This document shows, piece after piece, positions 150 to 42,919 of a DNA stretch of 64,000 nucleotides. Every line of letters begins with the position of its first letter. Position 1 is the first letter of the stretch. A program made the position numbers and the translations under genes. The notes under the pieces were generated by a model. That model was given only the letters and a program-made list of their open reading frames with translations. It made no database searches and was not told the origin of the DNA. The DNA comes from Orobanche coerulescens (Eukaryota > Streptophyta > Magnoliopsida > Lamiales > Orobanchaceae), in the NCBI GenBank assembly GCA_033398695.1, contig CM065814.1, positions 17,666,358-17,730,357 on the forward strand, read 5' to 3'.

Positions 150-154
150 CGTAT

Positions 155-1140: not shown

Positions 1141-1245
1141 AAGACCTTCATTTTTATTCCTACCGTCTCGAAGAACACTCACTGTTCTCCGGACATATAC
1201 TTGAAGAAACACTCACTGTTCTTCAATAGAAAAGCCTTCAGAAAA

Positions 1246-8078: not shown

Positions 8079-9002
8079 TCAAGGCCCCGCCGGCTGGCCA
8101 TCGCCCTCGGGTTGCGGATCGGCTTGAGCTCCCCCATCGGCCTCGGGATGAATGAGTTTACCGGTATACCAACTCAAGTCGATCCTGAAGTCGACAAAGT
8201 CAAGGATCGGCAAGGAGAATTCTGGATGCAGAGGATGCTCGAGGACATAGGATTTGAAGCTCTCCATCAGAGGACCGATCTCGACCCCTGCCTTTTTAGC
8301 GGCTCGAGCAATCGGCATAGGCCAAGTAATAAGCGAACTCGCCGACGTGCTCGACGTTAAGGTAGGGATCGACCTCGATCGCCTTCAGCTGCCCCTTCAA
8401 ATCCGCGGCCGTCTTCTCGGCCTCCGCCAGCTCGACCGCCTTGGCAGCATTCTCGCCCCTGGCCTTCTCCAGCTCCTTCTTCGCCGCCTCCAGCTCACCG
8501 CTGAGCCGATCCACCATCACCTTCAGCCCGGCCGCCTCCTCCTGCGAAGCCACGAGTTTTTGGCGGGTTTCCTTCTCCTTATCACGAGACCGGTCGGCAG
8601 CCTCCTTAGAGCGGCTCAGCTCCTGCTTCAATCGGTCCACGTCCTGCTTAGCCCTTTTGGCCGTCTCCTCAAACTCCTTCTCCATAGACTGGATCCGGTT
8701 GGAAGCCTCAATATTTTTGTTCCGGGCGGCCTCGAGGTCGCTATGGAGACGAGTAGTGGAGGGTCGCCCCTCAAAATCCCTAGCAGCTTGGACGGCCATC
8801 ATCGCCGTCTGGAGAGCCGAGCGGCACCGCCGCATGGCGTCTCGGATCGCCGACGAGCGATCGCATCAAGATCGGTCGTCAAGCCTTGGGAAGAGAGGTG
8901 ATAGCTTTGTGACGTAGCGGGGACTTCGAGGATCATTGCGGAGCCTTGCTCGACAGAAAGTCCAGCACCATGGGAGCAACGTCCGGGTCGGCGAGACGAA
9001 CC

Positions 9003-9086
9003 CTGCAGCGCAAACCAAGGAAACCAAGGAGTTAGCCCATACCATGCTCAGAATGCCTAACTCAGAAAATTTTGACCCTTTCTTAC
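9003..9086 (-). other. Intron 3 of the antisense gene
   Basis: The minus-strand donor is AATAG|GTAAGAAAGG and the acceptor is GCGCTGCAG. Length 84 bp. Joining gives RDPELVNRVRLADPDV in one frame. This is the strongest donor of the three. Confidence 0.75.
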
Positions 9087-9518
9087 CTATTGACCAGCTC
9101 GGGATCGCGTCCGAAATAAGGCTTGCCCCGGGAGGTTTTCGCCTCGGCGATCGCCACCTTCTTCGCCGAGCTGCCAGATGACCGAGGGCCGGGGACCGTG
9201 GGCCTAGGGCCTGATCGCTCCATCATCGGGACGGCAGAGATAGGAGCCGCAGCAACCGGAGGCTCAAGAATGGATACATCCGCCTCAGAAATCGACGGGG
9301 ACTCCTCCGACCTCCGCCTTTTGCGGAGTCAAGGCATTCCTCTCCACTGAACCACCGGCTCGGCGGCGGCACCTCGGCGAGGCCTCGTCACCGGAGCGGG
9401 CGAGACGTCATCGCAGAACGCGACGACCGGTCACCTTACCCAGTGGGCGGCCAGATGAGTCCCGGGTTTGACATAGCGATCTCTGGCGGTGGTTCGGCAA
9501 ATCGGGGAAAATAAACCT

Positions 9519-9609
9519 CTGTCAAAGAAGAGATACAAACAAGTTAGACAAAACAAAACGACCTCCTGGAGGCGATCGTCCAGCAAGGAAGCACCACTTA
9601 AACTCATAC
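9519..9609 (-). other. Intron 2 of the antisense gene
   Basis: The minus-strand donor is CCAG|GTATGAG and the acceptor is CTTTGACAG. Length 91 bp. Joining gives a continuous frame from HLKVP to EVYFPRFAEPP. Without splicing the frame ends early. Confidence 0.72.
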
Positions 9610-9774
9610 CTGGAACTTTCAAGTGACGGGGGTAGCAGAACAATCGAGCCCCCAACCGATGAGCTTCGGTACCAAGCGAGCGAACGTCGATAAAGGAGTT
9701 CGGCAAGGCACGGATCCGCTCCCAAACGATCAAGAAATCGAATGGAAGGTCACCGATCGCTGGAACGAGAGGTC

Positions 9775-9843
9775 CTGCAAAAAGAAAACAAAATTAGATC
9801 AGTCCAAGACAAGCTCAATCAAGGGGAGAGTTAAAATCCTTAC
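9775..9843 (-). other. Intron 1 of the antisense gene
   Basis: Read on the minus strand the donor is GTAAGG and the acceptor follows a T-rich run ending TTTTTGCAG. Length 69 bp. Removing it keeps the frame open from ...ERNP to RPLVP..., and the upstream exon is in the same frame as the ATG at 10780. Short introns of this size are normal in plants. Confidence 0.75.
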
Positions 9844-10925
9844 TCGGATTCCTCTCCCGGAAAGTGGTGGGGATCTCCAACTCCTCGTTCGGCCTGTCAC
9901 TCGATGCCGATCACCACGCCCCGCCGACCCAGCACCATTTAGAAAGGTCACCCCTGGTCTTATTCGGCATGCCACGGACCACTCTCCCGATTCGGCCTTG
10001 GATATGATTGCCGCCGATCGACCCTTTCTGCGCGGCCAGTTTGAACAGATAATTCATCTCCAGCGCAGTCAGGAGGCGAAACAACCGGTGACCGCCAAAC
10101 AGGGTCAACGTGCAGATGATCTACAGCCAAGCGTTCGGCGTCAGTTGAAGAGGCGCCAAATTCCAGGCGATGAGCAAGTAGGAGACGGCGAATGGCAACG
10201 GGAATCGCAGACCCGCCTCCATAATCATCTCGTTGACGGCAACCATATCCTTAGGCGGTTGGTCGGCGCGCTCATTCTCTGAGGGCACGTGCAAGGAAAC
10301 GACGGAGGGGATGTGATATTTGGCCCTCCAACGGCTCAGGTCTTTCTTGGTCGCCGTACTCCGGATCTTTCCGAAAGTCCACGGAGACGGGACGGCGGCC
10401 TGAAAAACCGTCCGCTTCACATGTTCGTAAGGGTGAGCGGCAGAGTAGGCCTCGAAGTCGAATTCCGGACAGGGTCCGGCGATCGCTTCCATCATCTGAG
10501 CAAAAGCCACATAGGCAGGGCCGAATCTACTCTCTCGTTCCCAGGCCTCCCGCACCAAATCATCCTCATCCACCGGCGAGCCCCCCTGCTCCGCCGTCGC
10601 CGCCATCCTCGCCACTTCGGCCTCGTTGAAAAGTTCTTCGAGCTCTACGGGTGCAATCCCCGCTCGAATAGCTTCAACGGCCGTCTCCATATCCACTCCA
10701 ACGGGAACCTCCTCCCGTTCAGGCGACGCTGCGGCAGCGGAAGAACTTCCAGTCTCGAAGGTTTTGGATCCTCCCGACATATTAGAAAGTAAAGAGAGGG
10801 AGAAGGTTAATTTTTCTTACCTAGAGAAAAGAAGGAGATCGGCACAAGAAGCTCCAGAAATTTTTGCAGAAATTCAGCTAGGGATGCAAGGACGCGTAAA
10901 AAGTGAAGGAGAAGAAGCCCTGACC

Positions 10926-10933
10926 TTTTTATA
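10926..10933 (-). promoter_or_regulatory. Possible TATA box of the antisense gene
   Basis: The minus strand reads TATAAAAA here, about 145 bases upstream of the antisense ATG at 10780. A GTAAG donor-like site also lies in the presumed 5' UTR near 10820. The promoter role is inferred from position only. Confidence 0.4.
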
Positions 10934-11264
10934 GATGGAGACGAGGGTCTAAATGCAAAGAGGAGAAACCTCGGGGGCTGGATCGCAACCGTCACGTGGG
11001 GACGCATTAAATGCTGCCCTCGAATCCCGCATACGCGTCTTTTCGAGGGCATGCCAGCCGACAGGTCCAACAAACCGTCGGATTTCCCCCAACAGCGGCG
11101 CGACGCGTGTCCCTGCCATTTTTGGAAAGCCCGCCTTTTGCTCCCGACGCGAGAGAAGATCGTCCAGATTTGAATTCAGATCGGTTGATCGTTTAAACAT
11201 TGGCGATCGCCAACAGTGCCACCTCACCCCGTGTTTTCAACATCGAGGCGAGCTGGGGGGCAAT
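10934..11264 (+). other. Element A 3' untranslated region and polypurine tract
   Basis: No gene is visible on either strand. The last bases before the 3' LTR hold a run of six G (AGCTGGGGGGCAAT, 11251-11264), the expected polypurine primer for plus-strand DNA synthesis. Confidence 0.65.
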
Positions 11265-12230
11265 TGTTGTGCGGAGATTAATACGCCTCGATAGGCGATC
11301 GGCATCACAATCAGAGAAGCCAACCATGGAAGACTTACTCTGGACAAACTCCCAGAGTTCGGCACAATGTGGCGACCGTCTTTTGGTACCCAGCGATCGT
11401 CTTTTGATGTCTGACGATCGTCTTTAATGAGCGAACCAGAGGCGATCATCTCGTGCCACGTATGGATCCGGCATCCGTCAAAGTCGTCTAAGACCGAATC
11501 TTGGACGGTGGCCCACGTGCGGATCTTCAAAGGATACCGACAGATAGGACCATTGACCCCAGCCTGTCACCTACCATACCTACCGACAAGGCCACCGAAA
11601 GGTACAAAGTGGGTCCTCCCCGGACAGCGACTCGAGACGCGTGCTGGCTTCCCATTGGTTCGCCCAGCTGGCCTCCAGCAGCAACCTCGGACCTCAAGGG
11701 AACAGGCCCACGTGACGGGACGATCGGCCGTCTTATTTTAATATAGAAAACGGCGGTCGCCCGCGATCGCCTGAGGAATCCCAGCTGCCTTGTCCCCTAT
11801 AAATAGAGAACTCACTGTTATGGGAAAGGGGACGCGAATTCTACTACGAATTAAGTGCAAAATACACACCAAAGAGAGAATCAAAGGCTCTTTTGGCAAC
11901 CACTAATACATTCATAGTGATATTCATACACATTCATCATATATCCCAAGCAAGAACTCACAGATTTATCTATCTGGTTCTTCCGGCAATCTACGCGCTC
12001 TAAAGCCTAGATAACTAGAAGTCTTTACACTCCTTGTAATAGATTCTAACATTAATATTTGTACTCGACAGTATATTTATTAATAACATCTCGCGAGAGC
12101 ATTCAAGCCCGGGATTAAAAACCCCGGCAAATCTTGTGTTATCTATTTTCTCACGGAAGTGTTCTCGCATTTGTTTGTTACTCGATCATTCCAGCAATAC
12201 TATCTCCGGATAATATTTTTGGTAACAAGA
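11265..12230 (+). repeat. Element A 3' LTR
   Basis: The same 966 bp as the 5' LTR with about 17 single-base differences and no indels seen. TATAAATA is at 11798-11805 and the CGATCG palindromes are kept at offset 11110, for example 11296-11301. The following CGTAT (12231-12235) is the second target-site copy. Confidence 0.95.
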
Positions 12231-16815: not shown

Positions 16816-17924
16816 ACAACATATACAATACAATTATGCATACACATATGCAAATCAATATGTTCATCAACATGAACAACATATGAATTAATAACACGAA
16901 CGATACTATGACAAATCACTAGGACAACCTCATGTTCAACAACATGAAAGACAATATGCATGACCAAAATCATTAACACTAAACCACAATCAATATAAAA
17001 TACTTGCCCCGAGTCCTTCGGGAATAATCTCGATGTCAAATCATCACCGACGATTATCCTCAATGCTCGGCGACCAAACGTACCACGGACTATAGATACT
17101 CATATCCACATCTTTATCATAATGTATCCTCGGTACCCAAATATGCTAATACCGAAATAAATCATATACATTATGATTTAACTCCCAAAATCGGAAAACA
17201 ACATATAATCATTGCTATATGTATTATAAACGAAATGAAACTGAAACCATTCATTAAACATTATAAACTGAGCAAGTAATAACTTGCCTCGATACCGATG
17301 AAGTCGTTACCAATTCCTTGCCATTGTCTACAAGCTCCTCGGCTCCCGGCCAAAGTGATTCACGAACGTTCTCGAACACGACCGCAACACTTTCTAGTCG
17401 ACGATTATAACCAACGATCAATGATCCCAACCTATTGAAGTAATCAATTAACACATATTCGATAATAATCAATTCCCGATATAACCAATCAATCAAACTC
17501 AACAGCTCAACAATTCCTCGACCATATACAAAACCAAATAACCCAACTCAACAAATACAAACTCATATCTACAATACAAACTGCAACTTGATGATCATAC
17601 TTAACAATCAATACAATCGATCAATAAACCCAACGGTTCCACAATATCCCGATTAAACATAAATCTGAACAACCCAAATCAATCAATCATGAAATCATAA
17701 CCACGATACATTTCCATAATCCGATAATCATATCAACGATCAACTCATATCGATAACAAGGATTACATAACATACCCTATTCCGAATTCAACGAATTAAC
17801 ACGATTCCTCCATATTTATGATTATAAATTTCATAGTAGGACAATACTATCGGCATAATCGGCAATCCGAACTACCCAAATAGTTCAGTACCATTGAGAA
17901 TCTTGTTATAAGATTAACTATAAT

Positions 17925-19939
17925 TGATCGGTCAAAAACTTATCCAAAAAATAGGAGTTCTTGAGTCGCTCGCAAATATATACGAGGTAGAAGTAGTTTG
18001 TGGTAAGTTCTACCAAGGTCTTTTCTCTCGAGGATTGTCCAACAGGGCTTCGTATAATATTTTGTATAAATTGCAAGAAGTAAATACTAAAATATTCAAA
18101 AAGATATTTTTGGGTTTTTAGATATTAACTAAATTAAATGCACTATATTTTAAACCAAACTATTTTTAATAAGACTATTTAATATAAGACTATTTTTATT
18201 AAGACTATTTATACTAGACTATTTATATTAAGACTATTTTTAACTAGACTATTTATACTAGACTATTTATATTAAGACTATTTTTAACTAGACTATTTAT
18301 ATTAAGACTATTTTTATTAAGACTATTTATACTAGACTATTTATATTAAGACTATTTTTATTAAGACTATTTATACTAGACTTTATATTAAGACTATTTT
18401 TATTACGACTATTTATACTAGACTATTTTTAACTAGACTATTTTTAACTAGTGAAAATGAATAGAATTAAAATGAGTTGGGAATTTATAAAATATAGGGG
18501 ATTACGCGTTCATTAAATTAGGTATTTAATTAAGTATAGGAATTGATTTATATGGATATAAAAGAAAAAACGAATGTTTATCGAGTAATCAACTTTTCAC
18601 CTCCGTACTTTCGTAATCAAAGATGTCTTAATCACTTTTGCTTTTTTAAGATGTTGATAACAAGATTAACACTTGATAGATTGAAAAGATGTGTTTCCAA
18701 TACACTTAACAATCAATCAAGGAGGTTTCACTAGTAGAAATAGGATATGATCAATCTCTATTTAAACCAATTAGTCCTTTCATTTCTCTAACTTGACTAT
18801 TTTTAGGATAAACGATCGTTCATCGAGTAATCAACTTTTTACCTCATAACTTTCGTATTCAAAGGTGTCTTAACCACTTTCGCAATCTTAAGATGTTGAT
18901 AACAAGATTAACATTTGATACATTGAAAATATATGTTTCCAATTCACTCAACAATCAATCAAGAAGGTTTCATTAGTAAAAATAGGATATGATCAATCTC
19001 TATTTAAACCAATTAGTCCTAAAAATAGTTTAAATCAATCAAATACTCAATATATAACCTAATAGAAATCCCCCTTCCCCTAGGAAGAAAGATTAGCTAC
19101 TCATTGGTTTATACATACTAAAATTATAATAGAAATAATTTATATATAATATATATATAGAAACTTTTAATTACTAGAACTTAATGTCAATAGATAAAAC
19201 TTACTTGAATATGATGTATCAAAGTGCAAGAAATATACTTCAAACTTGTTCAAAGGTTACAAGCTTACAAAAATTGAAAGTAAAACACTAAGTAAAATAC
19301 TAAGTGCTTATTGATCAAGCACTTTTCAATTACAAACTAAATGAAAGAAAAACTTCAAACCAAAAATAAAATACAAACTAAAATTGAGAGTTCTAAGAAA
19401 AATATATTGCTAAAAGAAAAGAGTATTTCTTAGCAAGAAGATGATTATTTCTTGGCAAGAAGGTGGGTTATTTTGCAATGGGTAAAGATGTCCTTTTATA
19501 GGTGATTTTCAAGAATACAATTGATTATTTAATTCAAAATATCAATTGTAATATCATTTTTTTAATTCTTTGTTCACACTTCACCCATGTCTTTGAATTT
19601 TTAGATTTTTGACCAAAAAAATATCTTGTGGTTGAGTTCACAAGTTGGTCAAAAGTGGACTAATTTTGCATGGCATCTGCTGAAAAACGGCGATGAAAAA
19701 AAACGGCCCAGTTTGCCCCGTGTTGTGCGCCGTTTTGCCTTGAAAAATTCCCGTCGTTGGATTTGATCTTGTTTTCCGTCCTTTTTGATGCTTCATGTCA
19801 GTAATCTGTAAAATAACCATTTTTAGCTCATGTTTGGATATATCTGTAAAATATATATTTTTAATCACAAATCAGTACAATTATGCCCCGAAAAATGAAT
19901 ATTTTGTATATGAATTTTAGATCAATTATGCACTAATCA
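17925..19939 (-). repeat. Element G 3' LTR
   Basis: The LTR runs from TGATCGGTC (17925) to CACTAATCA (19939) on the plus strand. It has a TATA-like CTATAAAAGG on the minus strand near 19494-19503 (29716-29725 in the other LTR). Upstream of that the minus strand has inverted AAACGGCG and GGCCGTTT words near 19680-19735, a weaker version of the palindrome clusters in other LTRs. Confidence 0.95.
18140..18450. repeat. Tandem GACTATTT array in element G LTR
   Basis: About 20 imperfect units of 13-16 bp alternate between GACTATTTATACTA, GACTATTTATATTAA and GACTATTTTTAACTA. The same array is in the 5' LTR at about 28385-28675 with a 3-base length difference and a few substitutions, so it was in place before insertion. 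It is A+T-rich and non-coding. Confidence 0.85.
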
Positions 19940-20429
19940 AATACCCCACACTTAAATTCTTGCTAGTCCCGAGCAAGACTCTTTATTAATCACACACAAA
20001 ATAAAAATTAAAATAAGACACAAAATAAAAAATAAAAAATAATACACACAAATTTAAGAAAAATAATTATATATAAAGATAAAAAGAGATCAAAATGCCA
20101 TTAATACACAATAACCAACTTTATACAGTAGATAGAAATGAATCAAGATTCAAAATAAATCTACTAACGATTTTGAAGTTAAAACACGGTTTTTATTTTT
20201 GTAATTCCAAAATGCAAGGTTTTCCCCCAAGAAGGTTGATTATTTCTTTCCCACTCGTGACTCACACGACTCCCTTTAATGGTTGCTCTCGATCACTCGT
20301 TTATTTTTCGACTCAATGTGAAGAAGAATTTCATTGGCGTCATCAAATATTGTGATTTTTCACGAAATTGAGTGTATTGAAATTCAGCCGCTAATTAATT
20401 CAAGTCTGTTCATAAACTACATCCCTTTA

Positions 20430-20734: not shown

Positions 20735-21312
20735 TGACTCCTTTTTTTTGGGAATATAATTTTTGCAGAAAATCATTTATTAGTTAAGCATGAAAAATTA
20801 AAAACTCCACAAATTAAGTAAATTTCAGTTCTATTTTTCATCAACCGACTGATTCTTCTTTTCTCAAGGTAACGAATGACTCGATTTTATATGATAACTA
20901 CAAGGCTTGGAAAGAGAGATTAAGGCTCAAAAAATTTTGGAATATACAATTTTTTACCGGTTAAAACAATTTTAGAAGCTTGTATATAGCTAATTTATTG
21001 GTGTTTATGGCCAGATCTAGAAATCTCACAAATAAACAAAATATATATATATATATACATAAAAAAAATCAAAGCCAAATAACAAAAATAATCAAATCAC
21101 ACCACAATAATTAAAACATACCACCCCCAAACTTGAAAATAAAACTGTCCTCAGTTTTTAGAAATGAAAAATAAGTGAGAAAACAGAAAACTCCCTGAAA
21201 TAAAAGTTGATGCTTGAGCTACGCCTTTTTGGATCTGCATGAAAAAAATATACGAGGCAAACAACAACAACAAAAAAAAAATATACTCGGAAGTATAACA
21301 CAATTTTAAAGA

Positions 21313-21467: not shown

Positions 21468-21526
21468 TTAGCACGATTTTTACACACGACATAAAGTAAA
21501 AATAACAAGAGGTCTGATATGGGGTA

Positions 21527-22183
21527 TCAAAGGGAGAGGAATGAATCCACTTTTCGTTTTCTCACGGTGAGATCTTCCATCCAGTCAATATTAGCTAGAG
21601 CTGGATCTGGTTGAGGAACAAATTCAGTGAGTTTTTTGATTAGCTCTTCTGGTGTTGTTGCAACGACTATGATTCGTTTAGCACGCTCGGAAATAAAACT
21701 TTTTTCAGCAGAGTAGTCGATGAAAGATAGTAAACCATCAAAGAAACCATTGACATTAAGCAGACCTATTGGTTTTTGATGAACATTTAGCTGGGCTCTG
21801 GTAACCACATGAAAAAGTTCCTCAAGAGTGCCAAAACCACCGGGAAGGGTGATAAAGGCGCCAGAATTATTTATCATGTGAGTTATGCGATCTTGCATAT
21901 TTACAGATCTAAACTCATCTCCAATAGTTGGCCCGGTGATTTTACTTTCAGCCAGAGGTTTTGGAATTACTCCCAACACTCTTACTCCTTCCATATAGGC
22001 AGAAGCAGCAGCTCGTCCCATTAATCCTAGACTTCCTCCTCCGTAAACTACATGAATGCATTTTTCTCCTAAAGTACGACCCAAGTTGTGGGCTGCTTCA
22101 GTAAAGCATGCATCTTTTCCATTACTAACTCCACCAAAAATGCAGACTGAGTTAAATCTTTTTGTGGAAGATGATGATTCCAT
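21527..22183 (-). CDS. LOG-family (cytokinin-activating phosphoribohydrolase-like) protein captured by element G
   Basis: An intact, intronless frame of 218 residues from the ATG at 22183; an in-frame ATG 26 codons upstream (22261) adds only a Phe/Ser-rich stretch, so I prefer MESSSSTKR. The LOG/lysine-decarboxylase-like family pattern is complete in order: VCIFGGVSNGKD near the start, VVYGGGSLGLMG (about 50-61), GVIPK, the MQDRITHM segment whose arginine matches the catalytic Arg of LOG enzymes, and LPGGFGTLEE with the catalytic Glu, then AQLNVHQKPIGLLNVNGFF. Plant LOG enzymes release the active cytokinin base from its nucleotide in the cytosol. The length is normal for the family. TWAQL is changed to TRAQL and the first CGSS is GGVS. 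Plant LOG genes normally have introns, so this is probably a processed copy. It lies between integrase and the 3' LTR in the sense direction of G, where Athila elements have an env-like gene. Activity is not shown. Confidence 0.9.
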   Translation of the reverse strand: MESSSSTKRFNSVCIFGGVSNGKDACFTEAAHNLGRTLGEKCIHVVYGGGSLGLMGRAAASAYMEGVRVLGVIPKPLAESKITGPTIGDEFRSVNMQDRITHMINNSGAFITLPGGFGTLEELFHVVTRAQLNVHQKPIGLLNVNGFFDGLLSFIDYSAEKSFISERAKRIIVVATTPEELIKKLTEFVPQPDPALANIDWMEDLTVRKRKVDSFLSL

Positions 22184-22267
22184 TTTTGAAAAGAAATTTA
22201 TTTGAGAGAAAAAGGGAAAAAAAAAGTACAAGTTTGAGGGATGAATAAAAGAAACAATCACAATGTT

Positions 22268-22275
22268 TATTTATA
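22268..22275 (-). promoter_or_regulatory. TATA-like box upstream of the LOG-like gene
   Basis: The minus strand reads TATAAATA, with its centre about 88 bases upstream of the preferred ATG at 22183. That spacing would give a 5' UTR of about 50 bases. If real, the captured gene could be transcribed apart from the LTR. Position and sequence are the only evidence. Confidence 0.45.
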
Positions 22276-22689
22276 GAAGAAAAAGAAGGTAAAAATTGTT
22301 TAACAAGTTTGTGATTGTGTTGATTGCGCTTCAACTACTCAATAGAATAATGAATGCATTTATCGCGTATCACATTTTTTTATTCAGAAAATCTCACCAT
22401 ACGACAAAAATAAAAGATACTCATGTGTATGCACAGTAGTTGTGATTGTGGCTCACATCTTCCTCTGATTTTACGTTCAGAAACGGCCTAAACGCCTTCT
22501 ATGAGTCGGGGAGAAGCTTCCCATCCAATTTTCTTACAAATAGGCAAACATGGTCTTTTAACGTCAGATTCCCAAGACGTTGTTTACATTTTTTATTTTT
22601 CATTTTTTTTGATTGTTTTGATTTTTTTGAAAATAAATAATAATAAAAACAATAAATAAATTGGGTTCCCTCCCAGTAAGGGCTCGTTT
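22276..22689 (-). other. Spacer between integrase relic and LOG-like gene
   Basis: About 400 bp of A+T-rich DNA with no supported gene, splice site or repeat. It may include the upstream region that came with the LOG-like copy. Confidence 0.4.
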
Positions 22690-23847
22690 AATGTCATTAG
22701 CTTGACAACTTCCTGTTTTAGTCGTGCGACGGATCTTCAAGGGTTATGCTCTCTCGTGAGGAATTTTACGATTTTCAAAATAAGGCTTTACCTGTGTCCG
22801 TTCACTGAAATGACTCTTTGGTTTGAGGATTTATCAGTCTAATTACTCCGTATGGAAATACTTCCTCAATCTCGAAGGGTCCCGTCCAGCGTGATTTTAG
22901 CTTACCTGGAAATAATCGCAAACGAGAATTAAATAAAAGTACTTTCGTACCTGGTTCAAGGTGCTTGAGGGTAAGTTTCCGGTCATGAAGTCTCTTGACT
23001 TTGTCTTTGTAAATCGAGAGTTCTTGTATGCTTCGTTTCTTAACTCGTCTAGTTCGGATATTTGTAGCAGATCTTTCTGTCCGACTTTTTCAATTCCATT
23101 GAAACGGCCTTAATTGCCCAATAAGCTTTATGTTCGATTTCAACCGGAAGGTGACAAGTTTTTCCATAGACTAGACGGTAAGGGCTCATTCCCAATGGAC
23201 TCTTGTATCTTATTGGTATGCCCAAAGTGCATCGACTAATTTTTCACCCAATCTTTTCGAGTTGGGCGCTTTTTCCAGATCCCTTTTATTTGTCGGTTGC
23301 TTGTTTCATTTGACCGACGTTTGTGGATGGTAGGGAGTTGCAATTTTGTGATTTATGCCATTTTTGGTCATAAGCTTGTCAAATAACTTGTTGCGAAGTG
23401 GGATCCCCATCACCGATTATTGCCTTGGGAAATCCAAGCGGTGATTATGTATTCCTGTACAAACTTAACAACAATATTAGCATCATTAGTCCTTGTGGGG
23501 ATTGCCTCAACCCACTTGGATACATAATCGACTGCTAAAAGAATGTACTCAAAATTTCCAGATTTAGTGAATGGTCCCATAAAATCAATTCCCCATACAT
23601 CAAAAATTTCTACGACCAAATTGATCGTGAGGGGCATCTCATTTCTTTTTCCGATATTACCAGTTCGTTGACACCTATCGCACTGAACACAAAAATGATA
23701 TGCGTCTTTAAATAAGGATGCCCAATACAAACCAGATTGGAGAATTTTGTTAGCGGTCTTTTGTCCGCCAAAATGTCCTCCGCAATGAAGTTCGTGACAG
23801 AAGGTTAGTACACTTTGTTGCTCATCTTCTGGGACACATCGCCTCAT
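22690..23847 (-). pseudogene. Element G integrase, frameshifted
   Basis: The open piece 23847-23410 starts near the HHCC zinc-binding region (HELHCGGHFG, then CVQCDRCQ) and includes the first catalytic aspartate in VWGIDFMGPF and the DYVSKWVEA stretch. It stops at a frameshift before the second aspartate. Further along the minus strand, in other frames, the C-terminal half is recognisable, including PYRLVYGKTCHLPVE and IEHKAYWAIK near 23180-23100. The catalytic core is therefore split and inactive in this copy. Confidence 0.85.
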
Positions 23848-25437
23848 GATTTAATCTTTGCATAATCGAAAAAGGCATGGTTCGTCCCAGAAGTAGTTTT
23901 TGCATGATGATAAAACCTTTTCTTTTCTTGGTAAGAAATGTTAGGTGGGAGCATTTCACAAACCAAATAATTCACAATATCTGCAAACCAAGGTACCGAA
24001 GAAATTTTAAATAGATTTTCATGTGGAAAAGAGTCCACAATTTGTTCATGTTTGTTATCTATTTCTTCTGTTATTTTTAAACGAGACAAATGGTCTGCGA
24101 CCACATTTTCACTTCCTTTCCGATCCTTTATTTCCACATTAAATTCTTGAAGTATTAAAATCCACCGAATCAACCGAGGTTTCGCTTGTTGCTTTTTCAA
24201 CAGATGTCGTAAAGCTGCATGGTCTGAATGTACAATCACTTCAGATCCTACAATATAAGATCTAAATTTATCCAGTGAGAAAACCACAACTAATAATTCT
24301 TTCTCGGTTGTCGTATAATTAACATGCGCATCATTTAATGTTAGACTAGCGTAATAAACCACACGGAGCATTTTATCAATTCTTTGGCCCAAAACTGCAC
24401 CAACAGCTCGGTCAGATGCATCGCACATAATTTCAAAAGGTAAAGACCAATCAGGGGCAATTACGATTGGTGCCGTGGTTAGTTTCTCTTTCAAGGTTTT
24501 AAAAGCATCGAGACAAGCGTCATCGAAAATGAAGGAAACATCTTTGGTAAGCAAAGTGCAGAGAGGTTTACTTATTTTTGAAAAATCTTTGATAAACCTT
24601 CTATAAAAACCGGCATGTCCTAAAAGCTCCGATTGCCTTTACATTGTTTGGTGGCGGTAATTTTTAATGACATTAATTTTTGCTTTGTCGACTTCCATTA
24701 CATGATTTGACACCACATGGCCTAGCACAATTCCACTTTCGTCATAAAATGACTTTTTCCCAGTGAGAGTTAAATGGCTTTCAATACAACGTTCAAGTAC
24801 TTTGGTCAATTTATTTAAGCAATCATCGAAGATGATCCAAATCTTGAAAAGTCATCCATAAATACCTCAATAGAATCGCCGATCATATAAGAAAATTGAC
24901 AACATGCACCTTTGAAAAGTTCTGGTGCATTGCATAATCAAAGGGCATTCTTCGACAAGCAAAAGTTCCAAATGGCATGTGAATGTGGACTTGATTGGTC
25001 CTCGGGTGCAATCGCCACTTGATAATACCCGAAAGGCCATCAAGAAAAGCAGAGAATTTGTGTCCTGCAAGTTTATCAATCATTTGGTCAATAAAAGGTG
25101 GAGGAAAATAATCCTTTTTGGTGGCGGCATTTAATTTTCGATAATCAATGCACATCCGCCACCCGGTTGTTACCCTTGTTGGTACTAGCTCTCCCTTATC
25201 ATTTTCAATCACTGTTATGCCACTTTTCTTTGGCACCACATGTATCGGGCTTACCCATTCACTATCCGCAATCGGATAAATAATTCCCTCAGCTATCAAT
25301 TTTAAAATTTCCTTTTTTACTACCTCTAGCATATTGGGATTTAATCTTCGTTGTGCTTCTCTTCTTGGTTTTTCTCCCTCTTCTAGGATTATTTTGTGCA
25401 TACATGTTGAAGGGCTAATTCCCTTAATATCACTCAA
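23844..25437 (-). pseudogene. Element G reverse transcriptase and RNase H, frameshifted
   Basis: The first piece (25437-24883) holds the palm start of reverse transcriptase: WVSPIHVVPKKSG, WRMCIDYRKLN and the first catalytic aspartate in FLDGLSG, then frameshifts (near 25040 and 24930). A FMDD motif is visible in another frame near 24858. The second piece (24554-23844) is the connection and RNase H with [38 protein letters not shown] and VADHLSRL, which carry its acidic residues. Several lesions in about 1.6 kb make it non-functional unless some are sequence errors. Confidence 0.88.
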
Positions 25438-25440
25438 ACC

Positions 25441-26385: not shown

Positions 26386-27987
26386 TTAGAAATTGCTTCT
26401 CAAGTTTTTCATTTTTTGTCGACTTGGAAAAGGTATTGGGGGTTTGTATGGATTTGTAGATTTGTGGAGTGTTGGGATGGGGACTTCTTCTTTAGAATTT
26501 TCATTTGACTCCTTATCTTCGTCCTTGTTTCCTGCAATAATTGAAATATCATCATTAGAAGGGGAATCAACTTGATTGTTATAAATCTTACCAGTTCTCA
26601 GCATGGTGATAGCTTTAGCTTGTTCGGGTTGACTTGGTAAACTCCCTTTCTGGTTATTTTGCAGTTGATTTGCTAGTTGCCCGACTTGAGTTTCGACTCG
26701 TTTTACTGATGCTTCCATTGCTTCAAATCTTCGATCCGAGTTTTGGATGAATGATTGAAGTGTTTCTTCTAATGAGGGTTTTCTGGGTTAGTTTGAGGGC
26801 GACCCTTGGAATTGGTTTGGTCTTTGATATGGTTGTTGCAAATTTTGATGTTGAGGAGGTGGTGGTTGTTGGTGATGATTCCCACCCCAAGAGAAATTAG
26901 GGTGATTTCGCCAACCGGGATTATAGGTTTCAGAAAAAGGGTCATTTCTAGGGCGTTGGTAAAAATTATTTAAAGCATTTACCTCTTCAGGGTTCGTCTG
27001 GGGATTGATGTTGGGTGCATGACTATATTCACCACCGTGAAAAATACTTCTTGAGATGGCATGATTTGTGGGTGGTTGAGAAATTCCTTGAGTTGTAAGT
27101 CGTTGGACTTGTTTGGTTAACTCGGCAATTTGCGCGCAGTGAGATCAGGTGGAATTTACTTCATTAGCTCCGACTCTCCTGCCTCGTGCACTCTTTTGCT
27201 GGGAGGATATAGCAAGTTTTTCAAACAAATCAAAAGCGGCTTGCGCCGTTAGTGTTCCTATATCTCCCCCAGCTGCATTGTCAACAGTAAATTGGCAATT
27301 ATGAGTTAGCCCATCATAAAAAGTTTGACTCAAACAGTGTAAAGGATAATGATGATGGGGGCATGCTAGTAAAAGAGTTTTGAAACGATCCCATGCTTCA
27401 AAAAATTGTTCACCCTCCGATTGCGTAAAAGCCGCAATTTTGGTCCTTAGATCCGCCGTTTTATGATGTGGATAAAATTTAGACATGAATTTGTTGCACA
27501 CATCATCCCAAGTAGCCAATGAATTTGGTGGCAACGTCATAATCTATGTTTTTGCTCGATCTTTTAAAGTGTAAGGAAAACACCTCATTTTTAATTGATC
27601 CTCGGTCAATTGTTGTAATGGAAAGGTATTTACAACCGAGTAAAAATCACGAATAAAACTTAAAGGATCCTCATTTGGCATCCCATAAAAAGATGGGAGT
27701 TGGTTGAAATGAATGGATTTCAATTCATAATTTCGTGCTGTCTGGCCAAGTTGTATGCATGACGTTGTTGTACCGATCACCGGTCTAGCAAAATCTTTCA
27801 AAGTTTGTTGATCTGCCATATGTTCTTCGTTTGACTTTTCTTCTTGATCGGAAGATTCAGTGTTTTCTTCTGTCAAAAATTCTCCTTCACTGCTAATATC
27901 TTCCAGGCTATCTCCAACTCGATAATCGGGATGAACGTTTTCGTTGTATGGTACCAAAGTTCTTGCAAGAGACCTACGGCCCTGCAT
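26386..27987 (-). pseudogene. Element G gag (Athila type)
   Basis: The frame begins MQGRRSLAR at 27987 and has the Athila-type capsid core (FHLNQLP-like FNQLPSFYGMPNEDP, then MRCFPYTLKDRAKT). A TAG at 27541-27543 replaces the expected Trp codon, after which the same frame goes on (27540-27145: LPPNSLATWDDVCNKFM). Further pieces to 26386 are rich in Gln, Asn and Pro with QVGQLANQL. It would form the capsid. I saw no intact zinc knuckle, which is usual for Athila. Confidence 0.88.
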
Positions 27988-28125
27988 AGACTAGAAAACA
28001 GTTAAGCGCACCATATGTGAAAAAAAAAATTAAGAACAAGAGGAATAAAAGATGCAAAAAATAAAGAAAGATTAAATCACAAGATATAAATAAAAGTATA
28101 CAAAAATTATATTTGGCCTAAAACA

Positions 28126-28144
28126 ATCCCCGGCAACGGCGCCA
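28126..28144 (-). promoter_or_regulatory. Primer binding site of element G (tRNA-Asp type)
   Basis: The minus strand reads TGGCGCCGTTGCCGGGGAT, five bases inside the end of the 5' LTR. This is the well-known plant tRNA-Asp primer site, common in Athila elements. Confidence 0.9.
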
Positions 28145-28149: not shown

Positions 28150-30164
28150 TGATCGGTCAAAAACTTATCCTAAAAATAGGAGTTCTTGAGTCGCTCGCAA
28201 ATATATACGAGGTAGAAGTAGTTTGTGGTAAGTTCTACCAAGGTCTTTTCTCTCGAGGATTGTCAAGTGGCTTCGTATAATATTTTGTATAAATTGCAAG
28301 AAGTAAATACTAAAATATTCAAAAAGATATTTTTGGGTTTTTAAATATTAACTAAATTAAATGCAATATATTTTAAACCAAACTATTTTTAATAAGACTA
28401 TTTAATAAAAGACTATTTTTATTAAGACTATTTATACTAGACTATTTATATTAAGACTATTTTTAACTAGACTATTTATACTAGACTATTTATATTAAGA
28501 CTATTTTTAACTAGACTATTTATATTAAGGCTATTTTTATTAAGACTATTTATACTAGACTATTTATATTAAGACTATTTTTATTAAGACTATTTATACT
28601 AGACTATTTATATTAAGACTATTTTTATTACGACTATTTATACTAGACTATTTTTAACTAGACTATTTTTAACTAGTGAAAATGAATAGAATTAAAATGA
28701 GTTGGGAATTTATAAAATCTAGGGGATTACGGGTTCATTAAATTAGGTATTTAATTAAGTATAGGAATTGATTTATATGGATATAAAAGAAAAAACGAAT
28801 GTTTATCGAGTAATCAACTTTTCACCTCCGTACTTTCGTAATCAAAGATGTCTTAATCACTTTTGCTTTTTTAAGATGTTGATAACAAGATTAACACTTG
28901 ATAGATTAAAAAGATGTGTTTCCAATACACTTAACAATCAATCAAGGAGGTTTCACTAGTAGAAATAGGATATGATCAATCTCTATTTAAACCAATTAGT
29001 CATTTCATTTCTCTAACTTGACTATTTTTAGGATAAACGATCGTTCATCGAGTAATCAACTTTTTACCTCATAACTTTCGTATTGAAAGGTGTCTTAACC
29101 ACTTTCGCAATCTTAAGATGTTGATAACAAGATTAACATTTGATAGATTGAAAAGATATGTTTCCAATTCACTCAACAATCAATCAAGAAGGTTTCATTA
29201 GTAAAAATAGGATATGATCAATCCCTATTTAAACCAATTAGTCTTAAAAATAGTTTAAATCAATCAAATACTCAATATATAACCTAATAGAAATCTTCCT
29301 TCCCCTAGGAAGAAAGATTAACTACTCATTGGTTTATACATACTAAAATTATAATAGAAATAATTTATATATATAATATATATAGAAACTTTTAATTACT
29401 AGAACTTAATGACAATAGATAAAACTTACTTGAATATGATGTATCAAAGTGCAAGAAATATACTTCAAACTTGTTCAAAGGTTACAAGCTTACAAAAATT
29501 GAAAGTAAAACACTAAGTAAAATACTAAGTGCTTATTGATCAAGCACTTTTCAATTACAAACTAAATGAAAGAAAAACTTCAAACCAAAAATAAAATACA
29601 AACTAAAATTGAGAGTTCTAAGGAAAATATATTGCTAAAAGAAAAGAGTATTTCTTAGCAAGAAGATGATTATTTCTTGGCAAGAAGGTGGGTTATTTTG
29701 CAATGGGTAAAGATGTCCTTTTATAGGTGATTTTCAAGAATATAATTGATTATTTAATTCAAAATATCTATTGTAATATCATTTTTTTAATTCTTTGTTC
29801 ACACTTCACCCATGTCTTTGAATTTTCAGATTTTTGACCAAAAAAATATCTTGTGGTTGAGTTCACAAGTTGGTCAAAAGTGGACTAATTTTGCATGGCA
29901 TCTGCTGAAAAACGGCGATGAAAAAAAACGGCCCAGTTTGCCCCGTGTTGTGCGCCGTTTTGCCTTGAAAAATTCCTGTCGTTGGATTTGATCTTGTTTT
30001 CCGTCCTTTTTTATGCTTCATGTCAGTAATCTGTAAAATAACCATTTTTAGCTCATGTTTGGATATATCTGTAAAATATATATTTTTAATCACAAATCAG
30101 TACAATTATGCCCGGAAAAATGAATATTTTGTATATGAATTTTAGATCAATTATGCACTAATCA
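28150..30164 (-). repeat. Element G 5' LTR
   Basis: The same 2015 bp as the 3' LTR, about 1.3% different by eye. One compound difference lies at 28263-28274 against 18038-18051, where a CAG in one copy is replaced in the other. The minus-strand TATA-like CTATAAAAGG lies near 29716-29725. The ATAAT after it (30165-30169) is the target-site copy. Confidence 0.95.
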
Positions 30165-30730
30165 ATAATCTTCCCGGATTCAAAACTATTATCATTATTC
30201 GTATTTCGTCAAGAACATACGAATTCTAGCACTACAATCAACATAGCATTGGTTTCAATCCTCAAATCTATGATTATACTTAATACCATTATGTATCCTA
30301 TCGTATTTTCCTCTTTGATGTGATAAATATACCGAGAACATAAAGAACAGCAACAACACCATGATTCCATAATCATGTTTATAACAGTTAACATAATTGA
30401 AGACATAAACCATCGTATCCTTCAATATATAATTCATATAATCTCAAGAATCATAACAACAACACCATAATCATCTTCATATGAATCATTCATCAACAAT
30501 AACATCAAAATCCGAATTCAAGGTGTAGAGTTCATCAACATACCTCAAGAACATGAATAACACAATCAAACTCTTCAAGAATCATCAATATCTTCATATT
30601 CAAGCCTCAAATCCATGTTTCTAAGATCATAATCAAGATAGAAGAGGTTAAATCTCACTAACATGCTCAGAGGGACGAAGTTTGGAGGAAGGTATTGATT
30701 TTCTCTCGTAAAGAAATGAGGAACCGATCC

Positions 30731-32293: not shown

Positions 32294-35074
32294 TGTAATA
32301 TCCGACTGTAACTTTTCATTTTTTTTCCTGTCGTTGTATTATTCGGATAATCTGATTATCAGAAATGGTTGCATTTAGTATTATGTTGAGGTATTATAGA
32401 TTTGAATATCACCTCATTGTTAGTTCATTTTAAATATGATGATTCGATGTTAATTAGAGAGTTGTATTTTCGGAATTTTTCTATTGATGTAGCGCACGTT
32501 ACACAGTAAGATTAGCGTACGCTAATCCTGTGTATTAGCGTGCGTAAGGTTTCCCTCGGTTGCGTACGCTAAGAAGGAATCTGACAGCAGTTGACTTCAA
32601 CACGTGAGCCTTTTAACCGGTAGCATGCATGCGATCTATGCAGTGTCATGTCGGTGAGAATCTACTTTTTCTAGCGTGCGCTAACCCATTCTTCATTAGC
32701 GTGCGCTAACGGCTGCAATAATTCAAGAAAGTAGCCATCAAAGCCGTTTACGTCGTAATATTGTTCGGATAGCGTACGTAAGGGCCTTAGCGTACGCTAA
32801 AGCGTCACGATAGCGTGCGCTAAGTCTGCACAGTCTTTATATAGGACCATCCTTTTTTTCATTTCTCCACGAACCAAAACGAATTTCTCTCTTCGCATAT
32901 CATCCATCTGCACTCTAAAAACGTTATAAACCTTCACCAACTTATTTCCAAGCCTTAAATCTCGGAGTTGAGCTCATTTTATTTGAGACTTTGAGTTGTT
33001 TTTAATCTTGGGATATATTCTCTCATATCATTGAAGTAATTCTTCATTTCTGGAGGTTTTTGTGTTTTCTTCTGCATTATTTTCTTATATTGATTATTGA
33101 TGACGAAATATACTTCACCTAGAGTACATTAAGCAAGTAAAACATGGTTATAATTAAACTCTTTAAGCATTTTGATGAATATGTTAAATAAGGGTTTGAG
33201 ATGGAGGTGTTCTTGATGATATAGTGATTTTTAATCATGTTGTGGTTGTCATCACTCACCTTACGGACGAATTTAGCTCGAGAAGCGTTGATGGATCGGT
33301 TAGCTTCTTCATAACTGGATTTAATCAAGAACTTAATATCATTAAACACCATTTTAGGTATTTTTTTTTTACTTTGAAAAGAACTTGATGATGTTAAATA
33401 TGAGACTAGGTGATCTAGTTCAGAAACCTTAGAAGCTTTAACAAATCATGATTGTTCAGTTTCACTAGTCTTTGAAGATTGATAAAGGTTTTGATAATTA
33501 CAAAAATAACTTTTCACCAATCTATTGTGTTGATAACTTAGAGTGTAGTTCATCATAATGCTAAGTAGATTGTGTTCTTAAGTAGATGATGCTGGTTATG
33601 AATGATACTATCATGGTAGATTGAGTATCAAATCCTTTATGACTATCCTTTTTGGTAATAAGAGATGTTGAAGAACATGAGAATTTGATTTAAACCAATT
33701 TTATTGGCAAATGGAAGATGTTATTGTTCATGGAATAACAAGAGAATTTCAAGACACTTTTGGTATGATAATCAGATGTTGGAAGATGAATTAGTTGTTT
33801 TGAAACCTTTCATTAATCGTTAAGGTATTCATCACGGGGGGGGAAAATTATTCGAGTAGGTTGCGGGCGTCGTTTCCTACGAATTGATATTAATATTATG
33901 TGAATATATTATTGAATGAATTACGTTTCATTCAAGGTTGCTCGTTCGATTGAGTGTTTAACTGAGGATACCGTCCGTTTGGTCATTTGGAGAAGGACTA
34001 TCTTTCACTTACGGATTTGAGGCAAGTTATCTTGCTTGGTTATAATGATGATTAGATTCTTCTGATGGTTATATTTTTCATATGTATGAATTGTTCATGA
34101 AATGTTTGTCGTGATTTGACACTGTCCTTGACGTTATTCCGTTTTCTTCATGGGGTTGCATTCCCAAGTATGTCGTTTTGAATCATTGATCTCGTTGGCC
34201 TTATTTTCACTTCGGTGAGTTTTTTCTTGATCCTTAATCGGATATGTGATTTGTTGAATTCGTTGTCATGTTGTATCGTGACATATCCGGAATCATATCT
34301 GCGTTCCGATTGGTTATTGTGTAGGATTTTTAGCCAGGCACATATAGTCATCGGCGGATATTATTCCGCGTTGGGTATGCACACGGGACGTAGTTTCGTG
34401 AGGCTAATTAGGTACATTGTCCTACGTATATTCGGATTCCATATACGGGCGGACATGTGCACGGACACATTTCCGGATCGGGCGTACTGTGATGTCCATC
34501 TTTGAGCCATACCGTAAATCGTCCCTAGTCTGGGAGGCGTGTGTCAGTTCGTTTCATACGCCCGAGGGGTATGATTGATAGTCGGAATGATTTCTTTGAA
34601 ATCTATATATGTGAATTGTATATGTCGAAGAATTGATTATCATGTATATCGACCTGTGTTGGGCGAAATACTTGTATTGTATTTTAGGTCGAGGCAAGGG
34701 CAAGGCACGGGAAGAGCATGTCGACGGCGAAGGATTCGGAGGATACTAGTTCGGGGGCCCCTCATCTTTGTTGTCCGGTTATGTTAAACCGTGTTGTATT
34801 ATTTCCTGTTCCGTTTAAATTACTTTTGGTTGTATTTGACATTTGAAGTATTTTCCATCTCCATATGGTTTATACTTTTTTTTTTTTTTTCTTTTCGGAT
34901 CCTGTGTGTTGTAAGGCCGTTGGCCACATTTTAATAAACTCCTAATCGGAGAAATGACTTTTCGTTGTGATTCGGTATCACAAATAATATTTATTTAACC
35001 TGTTTTGGATATCGCCTGGTGGGTCCCAGTGTGGGAATCACGGCACTGTAATAACCGCCATTTGGGGTGTTACA
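32294..35074 (+). repeat. Element E 5' LTR
   Basis: Contains a palindrome cluster of the TAGCGTACGCTA type (32488-32823) followed by TTATATAGG at 32836-32844. The small open frames further on (for example 34215-34787) are not conserved with the 3' LTR. Many of the differences to the 3' LTR involve CAG or CTG triplets (see findings). Confidence 0.93.
32488..32844 (+). promoter_or_regulatory. Palindrome cluster and TATA box of element E 5' LTR
   Basis: Nine sites related to TTAGCG-NN-CGCTAA start near 32488, 32512, 32535, 32560, 32672, 32697, 32768, 32787 and 32809; several are exact palindromes with a GTAC centre. TTATATAGG follows at 32836. The copy in the 3' LTR is at 40316-40680. Confidence 0.7.
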
Positions 35075-35079
35075 GAAGA

Positions 35080-35091
35080 TGGTATCAGAGC
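35080..35091 (+). promoter_or_regulatory. Primer binding site of element E (initiator tRNA-Met type)
   Basis: TGGTATCAGAGC, the standard plant initiator tRNA-Met primer site, five bases after the LTR end. Confidence 0.92.
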
Positions 35092-35493
35092 GTCGTTTTC
35101 TTTCATGAGTCATTGAGAAATGAACTAGTATCAAGAAACCTTCGTGTCACGTGTGACTGTCTGGCGCGACCTGCGAGCCAAATGCGGTATGTACTTTATG
35201 AGCCATGGTTTAATTACTGGCATGATATTGATATCAGTATAGGATCTCTTTGTTGATCATGTTATTTCAAGGAATGGTGACAGGATTTATCTGATTGATA
35301 ATCCGAGGTAAATGCTGAATTTATTGTATAATTGAAATTGTTCGACTTGACACCGATATGATACTCGGTGCGACATTTGTGGTGTCGATAACCATTTTCC
35401 TTTAATATGTGATTCCTTATTACTATTAATTCAGCGTGAATTTTGGTATCTTGAACTGTACTTATAGTTACCATTATGATTGACTCTTTCAGT

Positions 35494-36590
35494 ATGGAAA
35501 GAAACCTGCGAGGTCGTGGCAGAGGGGGACGAGGCCGCGGTAGGGGCCGAATCCCAATACCTCGAGCCAACAGACGCGCGAATGCGGATCAGAGTTCCGC
35601 AGACAGTGGTTCACCTTCTAGGGAACAATCGCACCACAGTGGGCGCGGGGATGCACGTGTCGATCCTTACGTCGTAATGCAGGGCATGATGACACAGATG
35701 ACCCAGATGGGTCAACTAATGGAAGCTATGCAGAGGGCCGCTGCGGCGGCGGCAAGGGCTCATCCTCCTCCTGTGATTGGCGGACCCGTGAGTCGGATTA
35801 TCGGCGACATCTCTCGCGGCGACCACCGACTTTTGAAGGCTCCTCGAGCCTGCGACATTGTGCATTGGATCGAGCATTTTGAGAAACTTTTCCGGATGGT
35901 GGGTGCCGGAAGAGAATCGCGTCTCGGTAGCCGCGTATTATCTTAGCAAAGGCGCTCATACCTGGTGGCTTTCAGTAAGGCCAGCTGATGGTGTTTACAC
36001 TTGGGAGGAATTTAAAAACCTCATGCTAGACCGTTACTATCCAGGGCCACTCCGTGAGGCCAAACTGTCGGAACTTTTGAACCCCGATCCGTCTGAAGAC
36101 GATGATGTATTATCTGTTGCTGAGAAATTCCAGGCACTCCTTCCTTTTGCCACGACAATTATTCGAACAGAGGCCGACAAGAGCAAATACTTTCTCAAGA
36201 GGCTTAAATCCCGAATGAGAATGCAGCTGTTGAATCACCACTGTACTACCTTACCAGAGTTCATCGAAAAGGCTCTGGAATACGAACTCACCGCGAAAGA
36301 AATTTCCAAGAAACAACCACAGTCCAACAACAAAAGGTCCAAGAACCAGAATCAGACTGAGAGTAACCGGGGGACATTCAGAAGCCCCGGTCATTGCCAA
36401 ACCCCTCGATCGTCCACCCATGGCGTCGAAGCCAGTGGATCGCACTCTCGGCGGTCCCCTCATCTGTTGTGTGCTATAAGCGTGGGGGCGGGGCATATCA
36501 ATTTCAATTGCCCAAAGCTGCCATCACATGCCATACTTGTGGGAAGAATGGTCACCGTGCTCGTTTTGCGGGAATGGGCCCGGACATGAT
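35494..36590 (+). pseudogene. Element E gag, frameshifted
   Basis: The likely start is MERNLRGRGRGGRG at 35494, an Arg/Gly-rich N-terminus. A Met/Gln/Ala-rich segment follows, then the capsid core, which changes frame near 35900-35930 (VAAYYLSKGAHTWWLSV and TWEEFKNLMLDRYYPGP lie in the second frame to 36589). A zinc-knuckle region near 36470-36560 is spread over frames (HINFNCPK, CHTCGKNGHRARF). Gag packages the RNA. Confidence 0.85.
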
Positions 36591-36879
36591 CCGATGGCAT
36601 CTCATACTCCTATTCAATCCTCTGTCGAGCCGGACGCCTCCGTCCGCTTCCTATCAGACCACGGGCGAATAAGGGAATGGGCCGTGGGAATCAAAGTGGT
36701 ACACACAGTGCCGTGCTGCGAAACCCGATTTACGAGATGAAGAAAGGCGATGATCCGAGGCCGGCATGATTTCGGTATACTCGAGATCCACTCCCGGCTG
36801 TGTGTGTTCTTTTTGATACGGTGCTTCACACTCCTTTATATCTTCTTCTTGTTTAAGCCGTTTACCTCTAGACCATGTT

Positions 36880-37879
<1,000 letters not shown>

Positions 37880-37880
<1 letters not shown>

Positions 37881-40080: not shown

Positions 40081-40108
40081 CCTTAAGTTTCGGGACGAAA
40101 CTCTTTTT

Positions 40109-40121
40109 AAGGGGGGGAGTA
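40109..40121 (+). promoter_or_regulatory. Polypurine tract of element E
   Basis: AAGGGGGGGAGTA lies directly before the 3' LTR, after the block TTTCGGGACGAAACTC shared by all the chromovirus-like elements here. Confidence 0.85.
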
Positions 40122-42914: not shown

Positions 42915-42919
42915 TGTCG

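Follow-up and report, generated by a model that had tools for sequence, protein, structure and literature searches.

The window that we analyzed, a stretch of 64,000 nucleotides of Orobanche coerulescens DNA, contains a full LTR retrotransposon, element G, which runs on the minus strand and carries, on the same strand, a gene of the LOG family (Table 1). Two LTRs of 2,015 bp bound the element, the target-site duplication ATAAT flanks it on both outer sides, and gag, reverse-transcriptase-like pieces, RNase H, integrase and LOG follow one another in this order. A first-pass annotation of the locus had described an uninterrupted 218-codon frame in the sense direction of the element, located between integrase and the 3' LTR. 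This description was borne out (22183–21527, minus strand), the LOG frame being in sense with both RNase H and integrase.

Table 1. Features of element G and its LOG gene (positions are those of the 64-kb window)
Feature	Positions	Strand	Basis or remark
Target-site duplication ATAAT, left	17920..17924	.	
3' LTR, 2,015 bp	17925..19939	-	
Polypurine-tract-like, purine-rich stretch ahead of 3' LTR	19940..19957	-	
55 bases 3' of the LOG stop	21472..21526	-	O. minor gene model P0070 matches, in another frame
LOG-family (phosphoribohydrolase-like) ORF, 218 aa, no introns	21527..22183	-	Frame from ATG (22183) to stop (21527), zero internal stops; PF03641, TIGR00730 and 2a33 matches
Leader: TATAAATA, then pyrimidine-rich stretch	22184..22275	-	Putative own promoter, not beyond chance
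Integrase-LOG spacer stretch	22517..22582	-	O. hederae LOG gene model P0054 matches
Integrase region, frame changes	22802..23850	-	Integrase_H2C2 in 23410-23850; no Pfam match below 23410
RNase H region	23844..24638	-	Domain match
Reverse-transcriptase-like pieces, broken	24639..25440	-	By eye; no Pfam match
gag region, single frame with in-frame stops	26386..27990	-	Retrotrans_gag in 27145-27543
Primer binding site TGGCGCCGTTGCCGGGG	28128..28144	-	
5' LTR, 2,015 bp	28150..30164	-	
Target-site duplication ATAAT, right	30165..30169	.	

The order of gag, RNase H and integrase between LTRs, together with the 5-bp target-site duplication, identifies element G as a Ty3/Gypsy element. Based on its layout, the length of its LTRs and its primer binding site, which we take to be of the tRNA-Asp type, rather than on a reverse transcriptase tree, we call it Athila-type, assuming that these three features are diagnostic. 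Athila elements have an env-like ORF in the position held here by LOG, and, subject to the Athila assignment, the gene qualifies as a LOG-like ORF located toward the 3' end of such an element. The LTRs, the target-site duplication, the primer binding site and the domain order all support the earlier proposal that the gene occupies the env position of such an element; the LTRs, the duplication and the copy number described below rule out a normal host locus with introns. PF03078 (Athila ORF-1) had no match in element G, and the passages available from PMC6317226 state that only 16% of Athila elements carry it. At rates from the literature, LTR divergence (30 mismatches in 2,013 aligned bases, K 0.015) dates the insertion to approximately 0.6–1.2 My ago. 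Judged on stop-to-stop pieces, the gag-pol region is interrupted by no fewer than five in-frame stops plus four frame changes.

Both LTRs also contain a 15-base tandem array of about 19.5 copies (18159–18443 and 28382–28668) that is rich in TATAAATA and adjoined by a 242-base double repeat. After LOG, the sequence CTGAGGACAGTTTTATTTTCAAGTTTGGGGGTG (21122–21154, minus strand), which resembles a motif located downstream of integrase in many Athila/Tat elements, might be an internal polypurine tract. The window holds further Ty3-type elements: (i) a GC-richer one at 153–12228, with 966-bp repeats at both ends (98.3% identity) and a long uninterrupted frame (1578–5813; 1,411 aa) that spans gag, RT and RNase H; and (ii) two adjacent, related ones at 32294–52183, with terminal repeats of approximately 2.8 and 2.05 kb, the second of which has a Tf2-1-like SH3 domain after its integrase (48145–49674).

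The LOG frame matches PF03641 (E 1.3e-35) and TIGR00730 (E 2.2e-47), its best solved relative is Arabidopsis At2g37210/LOG3 (PDB 2a33, E 2.3e-54), and it is 36–45% identical to the 15 canonical LOG rows of our alignment; these family matches are far above chance level. The PGGxGTxxE motif that, within a PF03641/TIGR00730 domain, marks LOG-type phosphoribohydrolases is present, as are all of the motifs named in the first-pass annotation (LPGGFGTLEE, VVYGGGSLGLMG and MQDRITHM with its arginine). The window protein shares with Arabidopsis LOG3 and LOG8 (PDB 2a33 and 1ydh) the family, the catalytic Arg/Glu pair and PGGxGT, but differs from such canonical LOGs in the prenyl pocket and the C-terminal tail. 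A tblastn search revealed no additional LOG copy within the 64-kb window, and no poly-A remnant was seen in the sequence 3' of the LOG stop.

Outside Orobanche, the C-termini of the non-canonical relatives of LOG, which we refer to as retro-LOGs, comprise a basic stretch and an LxLxL motif (e.g., KRKLDLTLSL) that we liken to the EAR repressor motif. This tail was found in 22 of the 24 rows from Reevesia, 7 of the 10 from Rehmannia, all four from Paulownia and 23 of the 28 metagenomic ones, in none of four Xanthoceras rows and in none of 120 canonical rows. It is degenerate in Orobanche (1/94), where it corresponds to window positions 21560–21527.

It had been pointed out that LOG is intact beside a broken gag-pol and that a TATA-like box precedes it. 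Both observations are correct, but neither is significant as evidence. For a single copy, the neutral probability that a 657-bp frame has stayed lesion-free since insertion is roughly 0.62 when half of the LTR divergence is taken as decay, and roughly 0.32 at the lesion density of gag-pol, and the intactness of LOG therefore carries little weight alone. The five gag-pol stops exceed the expectation since insertion (P ~0.009), from which we infer that element G probably carried defects before it inserted and was mobilized in trans. TATAAATA does lie at 22275–22268, 85–92 bases 5' of the ATG, and occurs only once on the LOG strand between the LTRs (many occurrences lie in the LTR arrays); however, by our own arithmetic on base composition, about one is expected there.

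Two protein searches were made, a first with LOG as query (6,461 relatives) and a second with a Rehmannia relative (3,368); from each, the best 120 matches were listed. Among these, the proteins closest to LOG are annotated as hypothetical and come from Orobanche hederae, O. minor and O. gracilis, with identities of up to 87%. Across the matches listed by both searches, at least 94 Orobanche clusters stand for at least 830 sequences (O. minor 420, O. hederae 390 and O. gracilis 20, cluster members being assigned to species via the representative alone), which amounts to a high copy number in the genus. Other multicopy relatives among the matches listed come from Reevesia pubescens (at least 156 members in 24 clusters), Rehmannia (at least 20 in 10) and Paulownia (at least 5 in 4); Xanthoceras and metagenome contigs are also represented. 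Two Orobanche relatives, P0022 and P0063, bear a cytokinin-activating name, by annotation only. Searches for related DNA in viral contigs with five queries (P0001, P0119, P0159, P0125 and P0135) found no relative, and the single genome contig matching P0119 (L001) proved to be an ordinary bacterial LOG in a rumen MAG.

Three of the Orobanche gene models reach into the flanks of LOG. P0054 (O. hederae) matches element G upstream of LOG, at 22582–22517, with 68% identity across 22 residues (E 0.003; chance matches elsewhere in the window reach E 0.019); P0081 (O. hederae) extends the LOG match by aligning with the leader up to 22216; and P0070 (O. minor) matches 21579–21472 (E 1.3e-6), half of this match being the end of LOG and the remainder the 55 bases past the stop, which have therefore been carried along with the gene. 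In both O. minor and O. hederae, therefore, at least a short stretch of the same element accompanies the gene. Two further gene models stand apart. P0127 (OROMI_034665, 3 members) represents a second, deep retro-LOG type of O. minor, which has Trp129 and the LxLxL tail and may be either an element subfamily of its own or a host gene. In P0110 (OROGR_024430) of O. gracilis, a LOG piece is fused to the copia-type gag domain PF14223, probably as a gene-model artefact or through a nested insertion.

To place these proteins relative to host LOGs, a maximum likelihood tree was computed from 92 of the 285 rows of the alignment, with canonical rows of the LOG1/3 and LOG8 types (LOG5/LOG7 and Lamiales LOG8 being outside the sample). 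The 27 canonical rows separated from the remaining 65 at 100/100. One clade (100/99) unites Orobanche with Rehmannia, Paulownia and some of the metagenome rows; Reevesia adjoins it (97/82), and the window copy falls outside the 13 sampled O. hederae, O. minor and O. gracilis copies (97/87). In AU tests on a 34-row tree, with groups that were chosen after the first tree had been seen, joining the Orobanche rows with LOG1/3 of Sesamum, Salvia and Buddleja was rejected (p 0.00025), as was joining Reevesia with two Malvales LOG1/3 rows (p 3.7e-6). Given the separate clade and these rejections, the LOG protein did not arise by recent copying of the host LOG1/3 or LOG8 genes that were sampled. A recent capture from an ordinary host LOG1/3 gene is ruled out by the tree and the AU tests, for a sample that excludes LOG5/LOG7, and the suggestion that LOG is a fresh processed copy of a host gene was not upheld, its protein lying in a separate clade and AU rejecting its union with the three Lamiales LOG1/3 proteins.

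We considered whether these sequences might instead be a dispersed host LOG family descended from a LOG group outside our sample, from which elements captured copies, perhaps several times, with selection acting on the host genes and not on the element copy. The distinct, deep position of P0127, which keeps Trp129 and the LxLxL tail, would agree with such a history, as would the limits of the data, in which LOG5/LOG7 lie outside the sample and element context comes from Orobanche alone, not from Rehmannia, Paulownia or Reevesia. However, at least 156 Reevesia sequences (24 clusters) and at least 830 Orobanche sequences are large numbers for a family of ordinary host genes, element sequence next to LOG is matched by three Orobanche gene models, and in Citrus and Populus the domain lies inside Gypsy consensus sequences, as reported in the available passages of PMC9289625. 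We consider this history quite improbable.

Amino acid replacements were then mapped by Fitch parsimony onto FastTree trees of protein rows only. The Orobanche tree comprises 57 rows, namely the window copy and 56 Orobanche rows, out of 94, with 205 or more aligned residues (P0127 was left out), and 57 core sites were defined by their conservation in canonical LOGs as well as in the retro-LOGs from plants other than Orobanche. Under neutral single-base change, 25–28% of replacements are expected at these sites. On end branches the observed fraction was 147 of 627 (23.4%; p 0.38 to 0.013 against neutral, depending on the mutation model), and on inner branches 28 of 169 (16.6%; p 0.01 to 0.0008). 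The difference between inner and end branches at core sites was borderline (Fisher 0.06, permutation 0.03), while the mean BLOSUM62 score of replacements was +0.27 on inner and -0.35 on end branches, a difference reached in 0 of 10,000 permutations. As a yardstick, 60 canonical LOGs gave 1.1% and 1.5% at core sites, a comparison that is partly circular.

A contrast was also seen at nine catalytic or nucleotide-binding residues (96, 99, 114–116, 118, 119, 121 and 122), a set fixed before the positions of the events were known. Only 1 of the 169 inner-branch replacements fell on these residues, versus 35 of the 627 on end branches (Fisher p 0.003; neutral expectation 4–6%), and the 24 Reevesia rows gave 2 of 78 versus 27 of 145 (p 0.0003). 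Gene-model errors would inflate the end-branch changes. Only 43 of the 85 Orobanche rows in which all nine residues are aligned keep all nine, and Arg99 itself, encoded in the window by a CpG codon, ranks low in conservation (75/89, percentile 0.16). In a deep tree of 46 retro-LOG rows, 36.1% of 502 inner-branch and 39.4% of 731 end-branch replacements fell on canonical-conserved sites; there, no inner/end contrast was detected, and both values are below the uniform 53%. Neutral decay of the copies, raised in the first-pass annotation as a check on its proposal, thus describes the end-branch replacements, which look near neutral, but not the inner-branch ones on this protein tree. As judged from the sequences, the pattern fits copies that decay after insertion and propagating lineages that keep the active site.

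The same data bear on the possibility that LOG is a passive passenger, an old host gene fragment without effect, the frame of which persists because most of the family stems from a small number of recent source copies. This would account for end-branch replacements at or slightly below the neutral expectation (p 0.38 to 0.013), for the loss of a key residue in about half of the sampled copies, for an intact window copy that is compatible with neutrality, and for a deep tree without an inner/end contrast. It is more difficult to reconcile with the Orobanche inner branches, which avoid the key residues (1/169) and the core sites and carry milder replacements (BLOSUM +0.27 versus -0.35), with the like behavior of Reevesia, or with deep branches that still avoid canonical-conserved sites (36–39% versus 53%), and we therefore regard it as unlikely.

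The likely activity of the product can be addressed by comparison with CgLOG, in which, according to the available passages of PMC4979012, Arg99 and Glu122 are the catalytic residues; Met96, Lys100 and Glu121 form the adenine site; Met96, His97, Lys100, Glu125 and Trp129 form a prenyl site that is also found in AtLOG3 and CpLOG; and alanine in place of AMP-binding or catalytic residues, except Ser19, removes nearly all activity. The window LOG, the residue numbering of which agrees with that of CgLOG, keeps Met96, PGGFGT and Glu121 as well as the catalytic Arg99 and Glu122. In the prenyl pocket, however, four of the five residues are replaced (H97Q, K100I, E125H and W129R) and only Met96 is kept. 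The derived residues recur in nearly all aligned Orobanche rows (Gln97 in 89/90, Ile100 in 86/90, His125 in 82/88 and Arg129 in 81/87), whereas the usual residues are present in 114 of 114 aligned canonical rows (counts that leave out two Orobanche and six canonical rows longer than 262 aa).

All four pocket residues are kept in three metagenomic rows and in Xanthoceras P0154; the remaining retro-LOG rows are without Lys100 and Glu125, Lamiales and some metagenomic rows are additionally without His97, and the main Orobanche family, but not P0127, is additionally without Trp129. Based on this distribution, the pocket changes look stepwise across retro-LOGs. Among Orobanche rows, the changed pocket residues show no extra constraint relative to a typical site: replacements at the four number 0 of 169 on inner and 8 of 627 on end branches (p 0.21), and His125 and Arg129 are only averagely conserved. 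The score against NF058542, an NCBIfam equivalog with a cut-off of 300 bits, was dropped as a test of cytokinin specificity, because five canonical controls (P0166, P0167, P0195, P0221 and P0273; 116–134 bits) fall below the cut-off as does the window protein (102.1 bits).

The earlier view of LOG as a hormone-activating gene accordingly stands with respect to the catalytic pair, but the replacement of His97, Lys100, Glu125 and Trp129 makes hormone release doubtful. A working cytokinin-activating LOG would release active cytokinin in the cell of the element, which could gain if, for example, cells that are passed on to the next generation divided more often. Family membership (PF03641, TIGR00730 and 2a33), the retained Arg99, Glu122 and PGGxGT motif, and the names, by annotation only, of P0022 and P0063 speak for such an enzyme. 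Furthermore, known residues predict LOG activity poorly: in the available passages of PMC11593424, no residues were found that explain differences in LOG activity, a result that weakens any residue-based reading of activity. Nevertheless, four of the five prenyl-pocket residues are replaced in nearly all aligned Orobanche rows and unchanged in all 114 canonical ones, and one of them, Lys100, also lines the adenine site. We consider a cytokinin-activating enzyme about as improbable as a passive passenger, and the LOG protein is, judging by its residues, a doubtful cytokinin enzyme. A kept catalytic core and a replaced pocket lead us to expect, tentatively, a phosphoribohydrolase of changed specificity.

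With moderate confidence, we favor the reading that LOG is an accessory gene of an Athila-type family, of old plant LOG descent, which encodes a probable phosphoribohydrolase with a changed pocket and which is propagated by the lineages that have the active enzyme. A plant LOG gene would have been captured long ago by an Athila-type element and then inherited within elements; its product would be a phosphoribohydrolase acting on nucleotide 5'-monophosphates, in which the catalytic core of LOG is combined with an altered pocket for the base side chain; and the element lineages retaining the active enzyme would be those still making copies, which, once inserted, would decay almost freely. The sequences themselves establish the anatomy of the element, the high copy number of the protein in Orobanche, its separate clade, the difference between branches in where replacements fall, and the residue changes. 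On this accessory-gene reading, the gene presumably rides elements in the other species of the clade as well, its protein would be enzymatically active with the specificity given, and it would help the element rather than being tolerated.

A more specific form of this reading, which we put forward tentatively and consider less probable than not by some way, holds that retro-LOG is a long-lived catalytic accessory gene of Athila-type elements in asterids and rosids that was rebuilt away from cytokinin, losing Lys100 and Glu125 first, then His97 (Lamiales) and then Trp129 (Orobanche). Its activity would be on another nucleotide, possibly an N6-substituted AMP such as the m6A RNA breakdown product, and would be needed for copies to propagate.

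Steinbauerova et al. (2011, Genetica 139:1543) reportedly described two Athila-like elements with LOGL4-like extra ORFs, which they are said to have read as gene transduction. Those elements would resemble element G in that their LOG-like ORF lies toward the 3' end of an Athila element; against those two, we find hundreds of related proteins, and our analysis further includes a branch contrast and an altered pocket. That Gypsy elements can carry LOG domains is already in print: the available passages of PMC9289625, which cites that 2011 study, report a domain of the YgdH (LOG) type in the consensus sequences of Gypsy elements from Citrus sinensis, C. clementina and, with the filter off, Populus trichocarpa. 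As in element G, the domain there lies in Ty3/Gypsy elements; unlike here, no clade, residue or selection analysis appears in those passages, and Orobanche is mentioned nowhere in that paper. The same passages describe Phalaenopsis Gypsy elements, of the Tat family next to Ogre, with an ALKBH5-like m6A demethylase. There, too, a catalytic enzyme of host type is retained by plant Gypsy elements, but it is a different enzyme, with activity shown in vitro, where our case is made from sequence. In the open-licence literature, a weak basis for a negative, we did not find the scale in Orobanche, the clade, the branch contrast or the pocket changes in print, and a search by title and abstract start found no open-licence paper on LOG genes in Orobanche elements as a topic.

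These findings have implications for both parasitic plant genomics and transposon biology. PMC13192451, the available passages of which give 35,001 coding sequences for O. minor and 27,636 for O. hederae, makes no mention of lonely guy, cytokinin, retrotransposon, gypsy or transposable, and the retro-LOG clusters, the representatives of which stand for at least 420 annotated proteins in O. minor and at least 390 in O. hederae, could lead annotators to overcount the cytokinin genes of parasitic plants. Functions are mostly lacking for the accessory genes of plant LTR retrotransposons, whereas here catalytic residues can be traced across many copies. In both Orobanche and Reevesia, the copy-producing branches keep these residues, so that the need of a retrotransposon for a metabolic enzyme becomes testable.
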